From Candidatus Baldrarchaeum yapensis (GTDB lineage Archaea > Asgardarchaeota > Baldrarchaeia > Baldrarchaeales > Baldrarchaeaceae), in NCBI GenBank assembly GCA_016840465.1, contig JAEOSH010000007.1:1-62201 (forward strand): a stretch of 62,201 bases of DNA. Reading direction: 5' to 3'. This document shows, piece after piece, positions 6,875 to 45,852 of this stretch. A program made the position numbers and the translations under genes. A model generated the notes under the pieces. That model was not told the DNA's origin. It made no database searches and saw nothing but the letters and a program-made list of their open reading frames with translations. Position 1 is the first letter of the stretch, and the number at the start of each line of letters is the position of its first letter.

Positions 6875-7684
6875 ATGCCATACTGCCAGTACTGTGGTAA
6901 AGAGATTGTTCTTCCATTTGTATGTAAGTACTGTGGAGGCATTTTCTGTGAAGACCACAGGCTTCCCGAGGCCCACGATTGCCCATATATGCCTCGTGTC
7001 AAAGAATGGGTCATTCGTCCTACAGTTTACGTTCCGGTCCCACCGCCACCACCCGCCCCAGCACCACAGATAGTTGAAGTAAAGAAAGCTAGATTCAGCA
7101 GCACTGAGATAATGCACCTATTTATAGGATGTATACTGATATTGCTCGTAGGATTCTCGTTATTCATGGATCCACGTTTCATCTTCGGCGTAGAACCGTT
7201 TATGGCATTCTTACTCGCGTTATCGTTCATACCGGCTTTCTTGTTTCATGAACTCGCTCATAAGTTCGTTGCCCAGAGGTATGGGTGCTGGGCAGAGTTT
7301 CGTCTCATAGAATGGGGCCTCATCTTAACATTACTTTCAATTCTCCCCTACTCTCCCCTTAAAATCATAGCACCGGGGGCCGTGATGATAGCTGGGGGGT
7401 ATGATAGGGACGTTGTTGGGAAGATAGCGCTCGCGGGTCCCTGTATAAACCTGGCGTTGGCTCTCATCTCATTGCCCCTGTACTTCATTTTCGCCACAAA
7501 TCCGATAATTGCAGGGCTGATGAGGTTTAACATCTACCTTAACAGTTTCTTAGGTCTCTTTAACATGTTGCCACTCGGAATACTGGATGGAAAGAAGGTA
7601 TTCGACTGGCGACCCGACATCGGAATCATTACGCTTGCAGCTCTCGCGGCTCTCTTTGGAATCTCAATAATGTATCTTTTGTAG
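6875..7684 (+). CDS. AN1-type zinc finger fused to a site-2-protease-like membrane peptidase
   Basis: Residues 1-40 form an AN1-like finger with Cys/His pairs at C4-C7, C17-C20, C25, H28, H34 and C36. A proline-rich linker (PVPPPPPAPAP) follows at 54-64. Then come about six membrane helices. HELAHKF near residue 126 is the zinc site, and NMLPLGILDGKKVFDW near 229 supplies the family's Asp ligand. This is M50-type architecture, so cleavage of a membrane-embedded substrate is expected, with the finger probably recruiting it. The AN1/S2P pairing is seen in other archaea. GGAGG lies seven bases before the ATG. Confidence 0.82.
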   Translation: MPYCQYCGKEIVLPFVCKYCGGIFCEDHRLPEAHDCPYMPRVKEWVIRPTVYVPVPPPPPAPAPQIVEVKKARFSSTEIMHLFIGCILILLVGFSLFMDPRFIFGVEPFMAFLLALSFIPAFLFHELAHKFVAQRYGCWAEFRLIEWGLILTLLSILPYSPLKIIAPGAVMIAGGYDRDVVGKIALAGPCINLALALISLPLYFIFATNPIIAGLMRFNIYLNSFLGLFNMLPLGILDGKKVFDWRPDIGIITLAALAALFGISIMYLL

Positions 7685-7767: not shown

Positions 7768-10069
<2,302 letters not shown>

Positions 10070-38951: not shown

Positions 38952-39374
38952 GTGTTGAAATTGCTCGATGAACTGGACAAGCGGATTATCGAAATATTAA
39001 AAGAGGATGCTAGGACGCCTTTCACCACCATAGCTAGCAAGTTAGGTATCTCTGAAGCAGCGGTAAGGAAGAGAGTCCGAAGGCTTGTCGACTCCGGTGT
39101 CATAAAGAAATTCACTATAGAAACGTCTATGGAGGGTGGCGCGCAGGCTATTGTAATGTTATCCGTCAATACAAAAATTCCGTGCCCCGAAATATCGAGG
39201 GAAGTGAGAAAAATAGAAGGAGTACGTGCAGTTTATGAGGTATCAGGCGAATACGATATTGTGGTGTTTCTGAACGGTCCGGATAATGATGCGCTCAACC
39301 GTATGATCGATGAGATAAGAAAAATAAATGGCGTTCTTAAGACGACAACAATGGTAATATTGAAGGCGTGGTGA
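38952..39374 (+). CDS. Lrp/AsnC-family transcriptional regulator
   Basis: 140 residues. The N-terminal helix-turn-helix is LDKRIIEILKEDARTPF through ISEAAVRKRVRRLVDSGVI, followed by a RAM ligand domain with AIVMLSVNTK, VYEVSGEYDIVVFL and VLKTTTMVILK. Such proteins sense amino acids or small molecules and bind DNA as multimers. It starts at GTG 38952. It overlaps the methionine aminopeptidase gene by seven bases. Divergent carAB is a possible target; this is only context. Confidence 0.9.
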   Translation: MLKLLDELDKRIIEILKEDARTPFTTIASKLGISEAAVRKRVRRLVDSGVIKKFTIETSMEGGAQAIVMLSVNTKIPCPEISREVRKIEGVRAVYEVSGEYDIVVFLNGPDNDALNRMIDEIRKINGVLKTTTMVILKAW

Positions 39375-40285
39375 GGCCGCTGAAGCCTCATGCACGGGAA
39401 TACCTAAAAGCAGCAGCGGAGATCGCAGAGAGAGTTCTCAAAGAGGCAGAAAAAATAATAAAACCGGGAATAAAGATAATTGAAATCTGTGAAAAACTAG
39501 AACAGTTGATAAGAAGGCTAGGAGGGCGCCCCGCGTTTCCAGTGAATATTTCAATAAACGATATCGCGGCCCATTATTCCTCCCCTCCCCAGGATCCAAA
39601 AAGAATACCTCACGGATCCCTCGTTAAGGTGGATATCGGGGTACACGTTAATGGCTATATTGTCGATATCGCAAAAACTCTAAACCTCGGAAGCGGCCTG
39701 ACGGATCTAATAAAGGCAACTGAGGACGCGTTGGAGGCCGCAATCGACCACATCAAGGCAGGTGTTAGGGTTTCGGAGATAGGTGCAGTGATAGAAAGAG
39801 AAATTAAAAGATATGGTTATAATCCGATAAAAAACCTTGCTGGTCATGCAATGGAACGTTATAATCTTCATGCTGGACTTTCAATACCAAATGTTTCGTC
39901 ACCACGCCCTTTGGGCATACTAGCCCCCAAGCTGCATGAAGGAATGATAGTGGCAATAGAGCCATTCGCCACCACAGGAAAACGAGCATATGTTGTTGAC
40001 GATCGCCCCATCTCGATATTTAAACTCACTGAGAAAAAGCCCAAAACAAGGGACGAGTCACGAATTTACTCTTTAATATGCAGGAGATGCCAGATGTTGC
40101 CTTTCTCATTAAGATGGTTTGACGAGATAACCGGATCCGGAAAAGCGGTGAAAACATTTACGAAAATGATATCAGAAGGGATAATTTATGCATATCCCCC
40201 ACTTAGGGAAGTCGATAAGAATCCTGTGGCTCAGGCAGAAACCACCGTGATCGTACATAAAAATGGAGCCGAAAGACTTGTATAG
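39368..40285 (+). CDS. map: Type II methionine aminopeptidase
   Basis: It removes the initiator Met from new proteins. Metal and catalytic residues are all visible: DIAAHYSSP (His), VKVDIGVHVNGYIVDIAKT (two Asp), LAGHAMERYNLHAG (His), VAIEPFAT (Glu) and AQAETTVIV (Glu). An insert (FKLTEKKPKTRDESRIYSLI) marks the type II/archaeal form at about 305 residues. It starts at GTG 39368 or 39371, inside the Lrp gene's end. Its TAG (40283-40285) abuts the stop of the convergent gene with no base between. Confidence 0.95.
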   Translation: MVRPLKPHAREYLKAAAEIAERVLKEAEKIIKPGIKIIEICEKLEQLIRRLGGRPAFPVNISINDIAAHYSSPPQDPKRIPHGSLVKVDIGVHVNGYIVDIAKTLNLGSGLTDLIKATEDALEAAIDHIKAGVRVSEIGAVIEREIKRYGYNPIKNLAGHAMERYNLHAGLSIPNVSSPRPLGILAPKLHEGMIVAIEPFATTGKRAYVVDDRPISIFKLTEKKPKTRDESRIYSLICRRCQMLPFSLRWFDEITGSGKAVKTFTKMISEGIIYAYPPLREVDKNPVAQAETTVIVHKNGAERLV

Positions 40286-40681
40286 TTATCGTCTTCTCCT
40301 TCTCCTTCTTCTCCTTCTAGTAATACTTTTCGTAACCTTCTTTTCTTCGGTTATAGGCTCTCCTCTTTCTATTTTCTCCACAATCTCCCTTATGTGGCTC
40401 ATGCTCTTCTCCAAACCATCGTTTCCCTTTATGAAAACACATGTTACTTCCATTTCTTTGATGAAAGCCGCTATTGAGAACTCATCAAACGCAATGAACC
40501 GGGGCTTCGGCTTATCAAGGCTTCCACCCATGAACCACAAATAAATGTTCACGAAGAGGTCCTCTATGTTCACATTGAAGTTTTCATCGAGTTTTTTGAC
40601 TTCTTTGAGCACAGGACCCTGCTCTATATCGAAGTCTATCTTTACGATCGCCGCTATGTCTTTGACACCAAACTCAAACAC
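40286..40681 (-). CDS. Longin-like protein with a deca-arginine tail, partner of Arf-like GTPase
   Basis: 131 residues. Residues ~8-105 look like a longin/roadblock-type fold. Two strands (DIAAIVKIDFDIEQGPVLKEV) are followed by a helix (NIEDLFVNIYLWFMGG), three strands (PRFIAFDEFSIAAFI, MEVTCVFIKGN) and a helix (HIREIVEKIERG). The C-terminus is ITR followed by nine more Arg, ten in total, just before the stop. The gene starts at GTG directly after the GTPase stop (TGAGTG), with GGAGGTGA upstream, so the two are tightly coupled. The longin assignment is by pattern only. The basic tail could bind phospholipid heads or nucleic acid. Confidence 0.7.
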   Translation of the reverse strand: MFEFGVKDIAAIVKIDFDIEQGPVLKEVKKLDENFNVNIEDLFVNIYLWFMGGSLDKPKPRFIAFDEFSIAAFIKEMEVTCVFIKGNDGLEKSMSHIREIVEKIERGEPITEEKKVTKSITRRRRRRRRRR

Positions 40682-41164
40682 TCACTTCACCTCCAGTGCC
40701 AATTTTTTGAACTCCTTCATGAGGATGTGATACATTTTCACTCTCTCACGAGGGTCTATTGCCACAAGACCATACGTGGGAACTTCTAATAAATCTTGCA
40801 CACGGTTCGGCTTCATCGCACCTGGGAGGTCCTGCTTATTCGCAATCGCAATTACACGGTATCCGTCAATTTTCTTTAACTCCTCTAGTATTTTCTTCGA
40901 CTGCAGAACATTCACGGGAGTGCTATCGGTCACCAGGATAACAAGGGTGCTCCCCTTGAGTATCTGGGGCCATAGAGTCCGAAACCTCTCATGCCCCGCT
41001 AGGTCGAAAAGCGAAACCTCATGCTCTCCGAATGATATTTTCCCGAGGTCAAAGCCTATAGTTGGTCTATATTCGAGCGGAGGTGGAGCACCGGTCAACA
41101 ATTTTATTATTGTCGTTTTACCAACCCCCGGTAGTCCCACGAAGCTCACTTTCACTGTGCCCAT
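40682..41164 (-). CDS. Arf/Sar1-like small GTPase
   Basis: 160 residues. The P-loop GLPGVGKT is at 10-17. Switch I PTIGF at 34-38 matches Arf PTIGFN. Switch II DLAGHERFRTLW at 54-65 has the His found in Sar1 in place of Gln. NKQDLPGA at 109-116 is the Arf-family base-specificity motif. There is no N-terminal amphipathic helix ahead of the fold. It lies with a coupled longin-like gene and near a roadblock gene, the same protein classes that regulate eukaryotic small GTPases. A membrane or signalling switch is a reasonable inference; the activity is untested. GGGGG precedes the ATG. Confidence 0.88.
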   Translation of the reverse strand: MGTVKVSFVGLPGVGKTTIIKLLTGAPPPLEYRPTIGFDLGKISFGEHEVSLFDLAGHERFRTLWPQILKGSTLVILVTDSTPVNVLQSKKILEELKKIDGYRVIAIANKQDLPGAMKPNRVQDLLEVPTYGLVAIDPRERVKMYHILMKEFKKLALEVK

Positions 41165-41232
41165 GTAGACCCCCTCTGTAAGACCGAACCCATCAATTTA
41201 AGAGTAGGTAATAGTAAGAAAGCAGGGTGAGA

Positions 41233-41568
41233 ATGTTGGAAGAGTACGCCGAGAACCAGTTAACACGACGCGAGAAGATAATGAAGATACTAGAGGAATC
41301 GGACCACTTCATGACGGTAGATGAACTTGCGTATATACTAGAAATCAAAGGAAAGGAGCGAAGGAGGCTATACGAGGACATAACGCACGTTGCCAAGAGC
41401 GTAAGGGCACTCTCGCAGGGAAGAAAGATTCTTGTAATGCAACCCCCTCAATGCAGAAAGTGCGGGTTCGTTTTCACAAACTTAAAAAAGCCGTCGAAAC
41501 CTAGAAGATGTCCCAAATGTTATTCAACGTGGATAGAACCCCCAAAGTTCAAGATAGTTAAAAGATGA
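41233..41568 (+). CDS. HTH plus zinc-ribbon predicted transcriptional regulator (COG3357-like)
   Basis: About 112 residues. A winged-helix-like N-terminal part (TRREKIMKILEESDHFMTVDEL through RRRLYEDITHVAKSV) is followed by a ribbon with CRKCGFVFTNLKKPSKPRRCPKCYSTWI. This is the archaeal COG3357 layout. It lies between, and opposite to, the GTPase and roadblock genes. AGGGTGA is close to ATG 41233; GTG 41227 is the alternative. Control of the flanking minus-strand genes is possible but inferred from position. Confidence 0.82.
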   Translation: MLEEYAENQLTRREKIMKILEESDHFMTVDELAYILEIKGKERRRLYEDITHVAKSVRALSQGRKILVMQPPQCRKCGFVFTNLKKPSKPRRCPKCYSTWIEPPKFKIVKR

Positions 41569-41578
41569 AGTTGTATAA

Positions 41579-41914
41579 CTAGAATTTCCTCCTAAGTACA
41601 CAGAGGTACATATCTTCCTCCGTTGCTATAACTATTTGCTTCTCCTCGCCCCTCTCATTTACAAAATCGACTATCACAAAGAGCAACTTGCCCAGATTTA
41701 ACTCGTTGGCGGCCCTTCGTGCCTCCGTACTAACACTCTTCACATGAGCGGCGAGCGCCTCGGCGTGCGAAGTCTTAAGGGTGGACTGTAAGGGGAACCC
41801 CTCGTCATCAACTACAAGTACACCTTCGACTCCTCTTTCACGTGATAAGTTCTCAAGAGTCTTCTGCAAGGCTATCGGCAATAATAGATAACTTGAGTCT
41901 CTCTCGTCGCTCAT
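41579..41914 (-). CDS. Roadblock/LC7-domain protein
   Basis: About 111 residues with the roadblock pattern. A helix (LQKTLENLSRERGVEGVLVV) leads into DDEGFPLQSTL, then a helix (AEALAAHVKSVSTEARRAANEL), then LGKLLFVIVDF, QIVIATEEDMYLCVLR. In bacteria and archaea such proteins act as GTPase activators or scaffolds (MglB-like). AGGGG is six bases before ATG 41914, and a TATA box lies at 41967-41974. The Arf-like GTPase gene starts about 400 bases away on the same strand, separated by one opposite gene. Confidence 0.85.
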   Translation of the reverse strand: MSDERDSSYLLLPIALQKTLENLSRERGVEGVLVVDDEGFPLQSTLKTSHAEALAAHVKSVSTEARRAANELNLGKLLFVIVDFVNERGEEKQIVIATEEDMYLCVLRRKF

Positions 41915-41966
41915 AGGAACCCCTTGCACCACACTGAGTGTTCTTTTTACAATTAGTAACAATACC

Positions 41967-41974
41967 TTAATATA
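41967..41974 (-). promoter_or_regulatory. TATA box for the roadblock gene
   Basis: TTATATTA on the minus strand lies about 55 bases before ATG 41914. Position-based. Confidence 0.5.
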
Positions 41975-43706: not shown

Positions 43707-44285
43707 TCAACGACTTCGTGCTCGCCATTCAAATGCAATTACCACAAACATTATGAAAATGAAGAATGCAACCAGCATCGGAGTGAACGTCTTGACAATA
43801 TATCGTACTGCAAGCATTTTCATATCCTCAATATTTACTATCGTTCTTCGTGCGAATACCAGCAGTATCACATATGCGCCATACGCTGCAAACACGGGCC
43901 ATGCCAAGTACCCGCCTCCTAGAAGCATAAGTAAAATTGCGACGCCCAACTTGCTAAACGTTGGGTCGAGTACCTGATGGGGCAATTCTTCATCGGGGTC
44001 GTATTGAAAATAGTATGTTAGTAGGAACGGTGGGATTTCAAGCCTAATAAGGGAAATTGCTTGAAGAGCCGCCTGTATTGGCAGTAAAACGGCGCAAATA
44101 ACAAGCGCATAAAGAAACAACATGTCAGAGAGCGAAGATGGAGGGAAAATATGGGGAAATGCCTCAGTAATTCCTATAAATGCCAATCCTATGAAAACAA
44201 CAGATATTATATGGATGACAGCGGCCTTAAATGCGTGTTTAAGGTTCCTTATCTTTACTTCCTTTTCCTCTTCGACCCCCAGCAT
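43707..44285 (-). CDS. Polytopic membrane protein of unknown function
   Basis: 192 residues with about five hydrophobic helices (near 20-42, 55-75, 110-128, 128-145, 165-185) and a short charged N-terminus. A loop with YYFQYDPDEELPHQ lies between helices two and three. I recognise no family with confidence; the layout recalls Yip1-like proteins. The ATG lies 47 bases inside the end of the seryl-tRNA synthetase gene, behind AGGGGAA, so it is probably read from the same messenger. Confidence 0.65.
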   Translation of the reverse strand: MLGVEEEKEVKIRNLKHAFKAAVIHIISVVFIGLAFIGITEAFPHIFPPSSLSDMLFLYALVICAVLLPIQAALQAISLIRLEIPPFLLTYYFQYDPDEELPHQVLDPTFSKLGVAILLMLLGGGYLAWPVFAAYGAYVILLVFARRTIVNIEDMKMLAVRYIVKTFTPMLVAFFIFIMFVVIAFEWRARSR

Positions 44286-45852
44286 TTCCCCTGCCCCCAG
44301 GCGGCCATGTTATCAATTTGGGAACTTCGGGCAATTCATCCCCAATGTACTTCTTTATTTCATCGGGCCATTCGTTGAATTCAAAACCCCATCTCGTCAG
44401 GAAGACATATGCCCATCTGGACGGACCAATACCAGCGCACCCTGTCCATATGGGTCTATTTGCACGGTCTCTAAACCTGAACCTCTTAGCGTAAAAGTCC
44501 GTATGCACATGGAACGATGAAATTTCCAGCTCCGCCTCTGGTCGGCTCTTCGTTTGGAAAGGCAATATTACCGTGAGATCATATGTTTTCACGAATTCAG
44601 TACTTTCTTCTTTTTCAACTTTACCAGCATGTTCCAAATACACGGCAGTTGTTGCATCAACCCTCCACTCTAGGTCAAAGATTTTGTCAATGATTTCAAC
44701 GGCCCGTTCAAGAACTTGATCACGTATTTCAATGCATTTTTCGGGAGTTGTTAGCCATGTAAACTCTATCCTGTGGAACTCATTAAGCCTCTCTAAACCT
44801 TTCAGCCCACCTCCTTCCCAGCGCCATGTTGGCCCATTTCTGTCAAAGAACTTTATGGGGTTCTTTTCAAGTTCGCTTGCGTCCACAATCTCGTTACGGA
44901 AGAGCTCGTAGAACGGCTCACATTGGGCATACGAGAGCGCGTATAATGGCGGTCTCAGTTTTTCCTTGAGCAGATCAACTGGTATTTCATCGGTTATTTC
45001 AACGAGGTCTATGAAATCCTCAAAGTCCTCGACATTCCTAGAAATCGGTGGACAGACGAATAGCATCTCGTGCGGAATTGCAAGTTGCCCCTTTCTCTTC
45101 TCAACATCAAGGGGTATCAACCTAGGAAATATTACCTCGATGAATCCGAGTGGTTTTGCTATCCTGTCTATCACAAGTTGCTCTATAGCTCTTATTAATG
45201 CAGTGAAGGGAGGCAACAATTGCCAGACACCGGCACCCGGATATTCTTTAACCCATCCGAGCCTCACAGCCTCTTCTGTCGGATCGCTCCTTAACTTGTA
45301 CTTATGGAGTCTGGGCTCGCTTCTCCTGACTGTTCTTACGAACTCCGCCTTGCCTCTTATTCTCTGTGCAATGATCTTTTCTTCAAGTCTTCTGAGCAGT
45401 CTATCAATGTAATTATCGCGTAGCGCTTTCTCATCGATATCTTCAAGTTCAAGGTACACCTTTTTTCCGTCAAATCTAAGCTCCTTAACGAAAGGCAACC
45501 TTACGGGCTCTAAAGGCTCCTCCGAAACCTCGGTCTCTATTTTAAATTCCTGCACCTCTATGTCCTTTACCCCAATCTTGTACTTTCTACCTAGATTTGC
45601 AGCGAGAACGTTCTTTAATCGAAGAATCGCAACATGGGACCTGACATATCGCCCACTCATTATGTGGACCCATATTCCATCGTCTAATATTTTCCAGTCA
45701 ACAATTCTTGGGGCCTCCTCTCTTTTGTCTGCAGGACAACCCTTAAGAAATTCCTTTTCCTCAACTTTTGCAATAAGATCGGCGATGAAGTCCTTAGCAT
45801 CCTCGGGTATCTGCCTAGTGAGTTTAAGAACAGCCTTAAGATCAAATTTCAC
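44239..45852 (-). CDS. serS: Type 2 (methanogen-type) seryl-tRNA synthetase
   Basis: It charges tRNA-Ser. The N-terminal domain (MKFDLKAVLKLTRQIP, then FLKGCP and IWVHIMSGRYVRSH) is the mixed alpha/beta tRNA-binding domain of SerRS2, not the long coiled-coil arm of ordinary SerRS. The core includes FPRLIPLD and a motif 2 with TWRWEGGGLKGLERLNEFHR. The zinc-associated CEPFYELF lies around 310. Motif 3 is GCAGIGPSRWAYVFLTRWG near 487. The type has been described mainly in methanogens. The Gly/Arg/Lys-rich tail (GGRGNAGGRRGKGSK) is extra. It starts at GTG 45852 behind GAGGTG. Confidence 0.92.
   Translation of the reverse strand: MKFDLKAVLKLTRQIPEDAKDFIADLIAKVEEKEFLKGCPADKREEAPRIVDWKILDDGIWVHIMSGRYVRSHVAILRLKNVLAANLGRKYKIGVKDIEVQEFKIETEVSEEPLEPVRLPFVKELRFDGKKVYLELEDIDEKALRDNYIDRLLRRLEEKIIAQRIRGKAEFVRTVRRSEPRLHKYKLRSDPTEEAVRLGWVKEYPGAGVWQLLPPFTALIRAIEQLVIDRIAKPLGFIEVIFPRLIPLDVEKRKGQLAIPHEMLFVCPPISRNVEDFEDFIDLVEITDEIPVDLLKEKLRPPLYALSYAQCEPFYELFRNEIVDASELEKNPIKFFDRNGPTWRWEGGGLKGLERLNEFHRIEFTWLTTPEKCIEIRDQVLERAVEIIDKIFDLEWRVDATTAVYLEHAGKVEKEESTEFVKTYDLTVILPFQTKSRPEAELEISSFHVHTDFYAKRFRFRDRANRPIWTGCAGIGPSRWAYVFLTRWGFEFNEWPDEIKKYIGDELPEVPKLITWPPGGRGNAGGRRGKGSKDKEP

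Follow-up and report, generated by a model that had tools for sequence, protein, structure and literature searches.

A gene pair of Asgard archaea encoding an Arf-side small GTPase and a longin-type protein with an exchangeable C-terminal end

The locus described here lies in a 62,201-nucleotide stretch of the Asgard archaeon Candidatus Baldrarchaeum yapensis (contig JAEOSH010000007.1; hereafter the window), in which the gene of a small GTPase is followed directly by that of a 131-aa protein (Table 1). The GTPase matches PF00025 (Arf) with 70.1 bits (Pfam cut-off 22.3) and carries the motifs GLPGVGKTT, PTIGF, DLAGHE and ANKQDLPGA, so that its catalytic position is His (DLAGH); no extension precedes the P-loop at the N-terminus of the protein, which begins MGTVKVSFVGLPGVGKTT. 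At the junction of the two genes (TGAGTG), the TGA stop of the GTPase is immediately followed by GTG, the start codon of the 131-aa ORF, with GGAGGTGA just 5' of these six bases. The 131-aa protein belongs to no Pfam family, and its NCBIfam matches are sub-threshold noise. Exactly ten Arg codons (AGA, AGG and CGA) close its ORF, after which the TAA adjoins the stop of the convergent methionine aminopeptidase gene at position 40285. The GTPase motifs PTIGF, NKQDLPGA and DLAGHE, the direct coupling through TGAGTG, the ten C-terminal arginines (Arg10) and a roadblock gene near the pair had all been named in a preliminary description of this DNA, and each is confirmed here, the last as a Robl_LC7 ORF that probably starts with the ATG at 41914. 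That description had passed over the HTH/Zn-ribbon gene that sits between the GTPase and roadblock genes. Farther along the window (44239-45852, minus strand) lies an archaeal MJ-type (class II atypical) seryl-tRNA synthetase, which we regard as divergent since it scores 519 bits against a curated cut-off of 611 bits.

Table 1. Genes and features of the GTPase–longin locus, with positions in the window and the evidence used
Feature	Position	Strand	Evidence
Type II methionine aminopeptidase, convergent neighbour	39368-40285	+	TIGR00501, 293 bits
Ten Arg codons and stop TAA	40286-40318	-	Sequence; genome-wide codon-run count
Predicted longin-fold partner, 131 aa (core about 1-112, disordered tail 113-131)	40286-40681	-	AlphaFold2, Foldseek, homologues
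Translational coupling: Shine-Dalgarno-like GGAGGTGA, then TGA stop and GTG start	40679-40695	-	Sequence
Small GTPase, single-domain, 160 aa	40682-41164	-	PF00025 match, tree, AU test
PF0610-like winged-helix and Zn-ribbon gene, 113 aa, divergent	41227-41568	+	PF21476, 46.9 bits; PF23470, 45.6 bits
Roadblock/LC7 protein	41579-41962	-	Robl_LC7 (Pfam), 49 bits, cut-off 23

The preliminary description had taken the GTPase for an Arf/Sar1-like protein with a Sar1-type His, and neither label holds. For the phylogeny, Arf1, Sar1A and RagA sequences were matched letter for letter to PDB, and true ArfRs were taken from family f17; the final tree left out RagA, which formed a very long branch. In the tree, Arf1, Sar1A and Arl8A group with the Asgard ArfRs in one clade (support 97/96), outside which fall the window GTPase and all of its relatives (99/98). 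Forcing the window GTPase into the Arf/Sar1/ArfR clade was rejected (p-AU 0.0059), as was forcing in the whole paired GTPase group (p-AU 0.0149), and on these results we reject membership of Arf/Sar1, Asgard ArfRs included. The window GTPase shares with these proteins the PF00025 G-domain, the PTIGF and NKQDLP motifs and a position on the Arf side of the Arf/Rab split; unlike the f17 ArfRs, however, it has no N-terminal amphipathic helix, and the Arf-type C-terminal end is not recognisable in it. A Rag-side origin has been proposed for similar proteins (PMC10933270). Within its own group, the GTPase of the window branches as the sister of the paired GTPases described below (95/88 in the final tree; 83/81 in an earlier tree with four long rows dropped), and in an earlier tree containing the long branches it stood at an unresolved fork. 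Apart from the window GTPase, the 115 GTPase rows show the His of DLAGHE in just one f8 genome, whose locus is present twice, and one paralogue of the Rab type; hence, it was not inherited from Sar1 and, judged from this distribution, looks like a parallel change.

The longin-like call for the 131-aa protein, made at first by pattern, agrees with structure prediction. An AlphaFold2 model built from the window protein and 27 homologues (pLDDT 74.7) shows strands at residues 9-18 and 22-30, a helix at 39-51, strands at 62-64, 68-75 and 78-85 and a helix at 94-105, followed by disorder at 113-131. The resulting order, β-β-α-β-β-β-α, is that of longin and not of roadblock proteins (PMC10933270); the five-stranded sheet without an N-terminal helix is the longin arrangement, and one C-terminal helix is modelled where longins are expected to have two. 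The best 50 PDB matches found by Foldseek were all roadblock or longin proteins, with probabilities of 0.99-1.00 but E values >0.001 and TM scores mostly of 0.4-0.55; these loose matches include LAMTOR2/3, the MK-D1 roadblock protein, AP sigma, zeta-COP, TRAPP and DENND1A. The protein is thus predicted to have a longin-type topology. In the family alignment, the invariant residues of the longin core are F17, D18, G22, P23, Y47, F50, G52, G53, P60, F68, A72 and F83; no Arg is among them, which leaves no conserved arginine finger within the core.

Further analyses revealed that the pairing of the two genes extends well beyond the window. A scan for longin homologues in one genome per species (84,980 species), run with a narrow alignment biased to Loki-type sequences, yielded 60 loci, all in Asgard archaea. 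At 58 of these the GTPase gene lies directly upstream of the longin homologue, with a gap of -14 to +20 nt and often an overlap; of the other two, one lies at the very start of its contig, which opens with the longin gene (L066), and the other is a match to the second of two longin copies (L061). The pair was further seen in families f8, f13, f18 and f25-f29, so the gene order of the window recurs in its relatives. A profile search detected the longin family in 84 of the 228 Asgard genomes, nearly always as a single copy. Given both counts, we regard the pairing of GTPase and longin as genuine and ancient. The partnership can nevertheless be lost, as in the nearest relative (G003, locus L028): there the order PF0610-longin-aminopeptidase is retained, with a PF0610-like gene (7332-7652) adjoining the longin gene and an aminopeptidase start (8245-8475) after it, and the GTPase is missing. 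In families f6 and f12, too, the longin protein has no adjoining GTPase, a relative of which lies in an information-processing cluster instead.

Several arrangements were observed beside these. The orphan longin proteins of f6 and f12 (L039-L045) have conserved, amphipathic-looking basic tails that start with SCLRSL. In one Loki genome (L061 and G126:C141) the GTPase is followed by two copies of the longin gene, and the product of the second ends in an apparent coiled coil and not in a winged helix. The window genome contains 12 Arf-profile matches, three of which resemble the window GTPase, two of these being longer (fused) proteins. It also holds a second operon (L005, G000:C76), in which a GTPase with an N-terminal longin-like part is coupled to a longin-like protein with weak HTH matches; a coiled coil and then another longin-like/HTH protein follow.

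While the longin core is shared, what follows it varies between lineages. A structure model of the full-length Loki-type protein shows the core and then a winged helix; most relatives' longin proteins have such an end, and the window protein lacks it. The profile of the Loki-type end matches DNA-binding winged helices in PDB (Lrs14, IclR and Z-DNA-binding; best E 1.7e-4), and in L170 HTH_5 and HTH_DeoR score above the Pfam cut-off. A winged helix does not necessarily bind DNA. The end found in Borrarchaeum and f8 is of another kind and has a GLGxKR pattern, by which it is possibly an HhH domain; in a PDB profile search, its best match was irrelevant (E 0.09). All homologues without such a domain are basic over their last 20 residues (+11 in the window protein, +9 in G003, +5/+6 in f6, +5 in f12). 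Arg10 itself was seen in one genome only, where it is the sole run of at least eight consecutive AGR/CGR codons in 2.27 Mb and hence does not look like a chance occurrence. The longin core therefore bears an exchangeable C-terminal end, which is a winged helix, possibly an HhH domain, a basic tail or Arg10, and which is newly described here.

Beyond the paired group, the nearest relatives of the GTPase were found among information-processing genes. They occupy whole or partial Csl4-RpoL-RNase III-like-TFS-[GTPase]-OB-PCNA-PriL-PriS clusters (L117, L119, L130 and L131; gene identities in L117 were assigned by Pfam), others adjoin TFS and OB genes (L122, L123), and in the Thor-like family f4 they lie between a glycerol-1-phosphate-dehydrogenase-like gene and RpoD. 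Relatives at L116, L118, L121, L127 and L128 were likewise noted in information-processing clusters or, in f4, near RpoD and ribosomal genes. The window genome keeps a Csl4-RpoL-TFS-PCNA-primase cluster without the GTPase and OB genes (L167, G000:C79:1-13000), no GTPase being present there between TFS and PCNA. The window GTPase could in principle be a cluster GTPase that has been relocated; we do not prefer this origin, against which stand AU values (p 0.05-0.06) for grouping it with the f6/f12 or the Borrarchaeum cluster copies.

The preliminary description had joined the GTPase, the longin-like protein and the roadblock protein in a three-part module. Its first half, the GTPase–longin coupling, is upheld by the conserved neighbourhood; the roadblock gene as third part is rejected. 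Around the 60 loci no roadblock relative was found with the window roadblock protein as single-sequence query, a search that distant relatives could escape. Where other genomes have an orthologue of the window roadblock protein, its gene is on a different contig from the pair or distant from it; in G003 one adjoins an MglA-looking GTPase, itself an Arf-profile match, and one of the two G003 copies adjoins a UPF0173 metallo-hydrolase, as in the window. In this G003 neighbourhood (L190 490-2191 and L191), the roadblock orthologue also adjoins another small longin-like protein, which has the basic tail KRLLKKLKNI. Judged from these neighbourhoods, the roadblock gene is assigned to a setting with the MglA-looking GTPase and UPF0173 and not to the GTPase–longin unit. 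The three-part module, for which its proximity in the window alone speaks, is thus very improbable indeed.

What might the pair do? We propose a conserved two-protein switch, in which a GTPase-bound longin platform carries an exchangeable targeting end and the state of the GTPase controls polyanion binding, a proposal to which we give an even chance of being right. Coupled translation would yield the GTPase and the longin protein, which most likely bind each other, given this coupling, the conserved pairing and the known binding of small GTPases by longin/roadblock proteins (PMC10933270). The longin protein, probably as a dimer, would serve as a docking platform and as a regulator or effector of the GTPase; since none of the invariant core residues is Arg, there is no support for an arginine finger like that of NPRL2, and a platform or effector is likelier than a GAP. 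Its C-terminal end would be the module that chooses the target: a winged helix in the Loki-type and several other families, probably an HhH domain in Borrarchaeum and f8, and otherwise a short basic tail, of which Arg10 would be the extreme. Such a tail would most likely bind a polyanion, with nucleic acid slightly likelier than membrane, and the nucleotide state of the GTPase would decide when it binds. Nucleic acid is slightly favoured because of the winged helix and the genomic company of the sister GTPases, a membrane target is possible because of the basic tails, and a protein contact because NPRL2/3 share the longin-winged-helix layout (PMC5681675).

A narrower version of the proposed switch, which we consider tentative and rather unlikely, is that this Arf-side Asgard system acts on nucleic acid and not on membrane, with a longin platform whose end (winged helix, HhH or Arg10) would bind DNA or RNA and with sister GTPases inside a replication/transcription gene cluster. 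Somewhat less likely is a membrane module, in which the longin partner would be anchored by its Arg tail to acidic lipids of the archaeal membrane, where the GTPase would act in the manner of Arf with coat subunits of longin fold. The C-termini of all domain-less members are indeed basic, f6/f12 tails such as CLRSLAARVNQFWKK look amphipathic, and the fold matches include AP sigma and zeta-COP, both of which occur in Arf1-bound coats; however, the GTPase falls outside the Arf/ArfR clade and lacks the N-terminal amphipathic helix, and in most orthologous partners the C-terminus is a winged helix and not a membrane-binding segment. The likeness to AP sigma and zeta-COP, longin-fold proteins of Arf-bound complexes, is at the level of the fold only, and the window has no coat subunits.

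Doubtful, too, and slightly more so, is that the longin protein is an NPRL2/3-like regulator, a GAP or GEF whose winged helix would serve for protein contacts and in which the Arg tail would be incidental. NPRL2 and NPRL3 act on Rag GTPases. Most relatives of the window protein share with these GATOR1 subunits the succession of longin and winged helix (PMC5681675), a partner that is a Rag/Arf-like GTPase and, for the Loki model, a fold match to a chain of a GATOR1-Gtr complex; regulation of small GTPases is also general among longin/roadblock proteins (PMC10933270). Yet what is shown is a resemblance in architecture, not a sequence-level kinship; the invariant core residues offer no conserved arginine finger, and in the window the relatives' single winged helix is replaced by Arg10. 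To the same low degree we credit the reading that Arg10 is a functionless, neutral by-product of a purine-rich repeat at a convergent gene end, where the plus strand has a pyrimidine tract, perhaps the aminopeptidase terminator. The tract is an AGA/AGG near-repeat adjoining the stop of the convergent gene and known from one genome only; the genome, however, has no second such run, and domain-less homologues of other lineages have basic ends of different sequence.

We found no published description of the two-gene unit or of its exchangeable end in a survey that lay outside the main Asgard Arf papers, for which (Vargova 2025; Zhu 2025) we follow the account in a review (PMC12554972). Longin-GTPase fusions and many Asgard longin proteins have already been published (PMC10933270, PMC4917890). 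Asgard longin-GTPase and roadblock-GTPase fusions (Tran et al. 2024, PMC10933270; Loki counts in PMC4917890) join the same two folds, and in our tree the longer fused GTPases are close paralogues of the window GTPase, whereas the window has two coupled genes with the longin downstream and bearing its own exchangeable end. MglA-MglB is likewise a two-gene system of a GTPase and a roadblock/longin-fold partner; the partner in the window, however, has the longin topology without an N-terminal helix, and the MglB-like gene there is the roadblock gene.

Asgard archaea encode dozens of small GTPases and longin proteins, the pairings of which are largely unknown, so that ideas about their function are borrowed from eukaryotic membrane traffic. 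The pair described here is defined, mostly single-copy, spread across many Asgard families and small enough for expression and testing. If the switch did act on nucleic acid, the membrane roles of Arf-type GTPases with their longin partners would represent no more than one branch of a system that is older and in part linked to nucleic acid. As one and the same longin core occurs with a winged helix, with what may be an HhH domain or with a poly-Arg tail, these genomes offer a natural experiment, which makes it testable whether the GTPase–longin partnership began at membranes or elsewhere.
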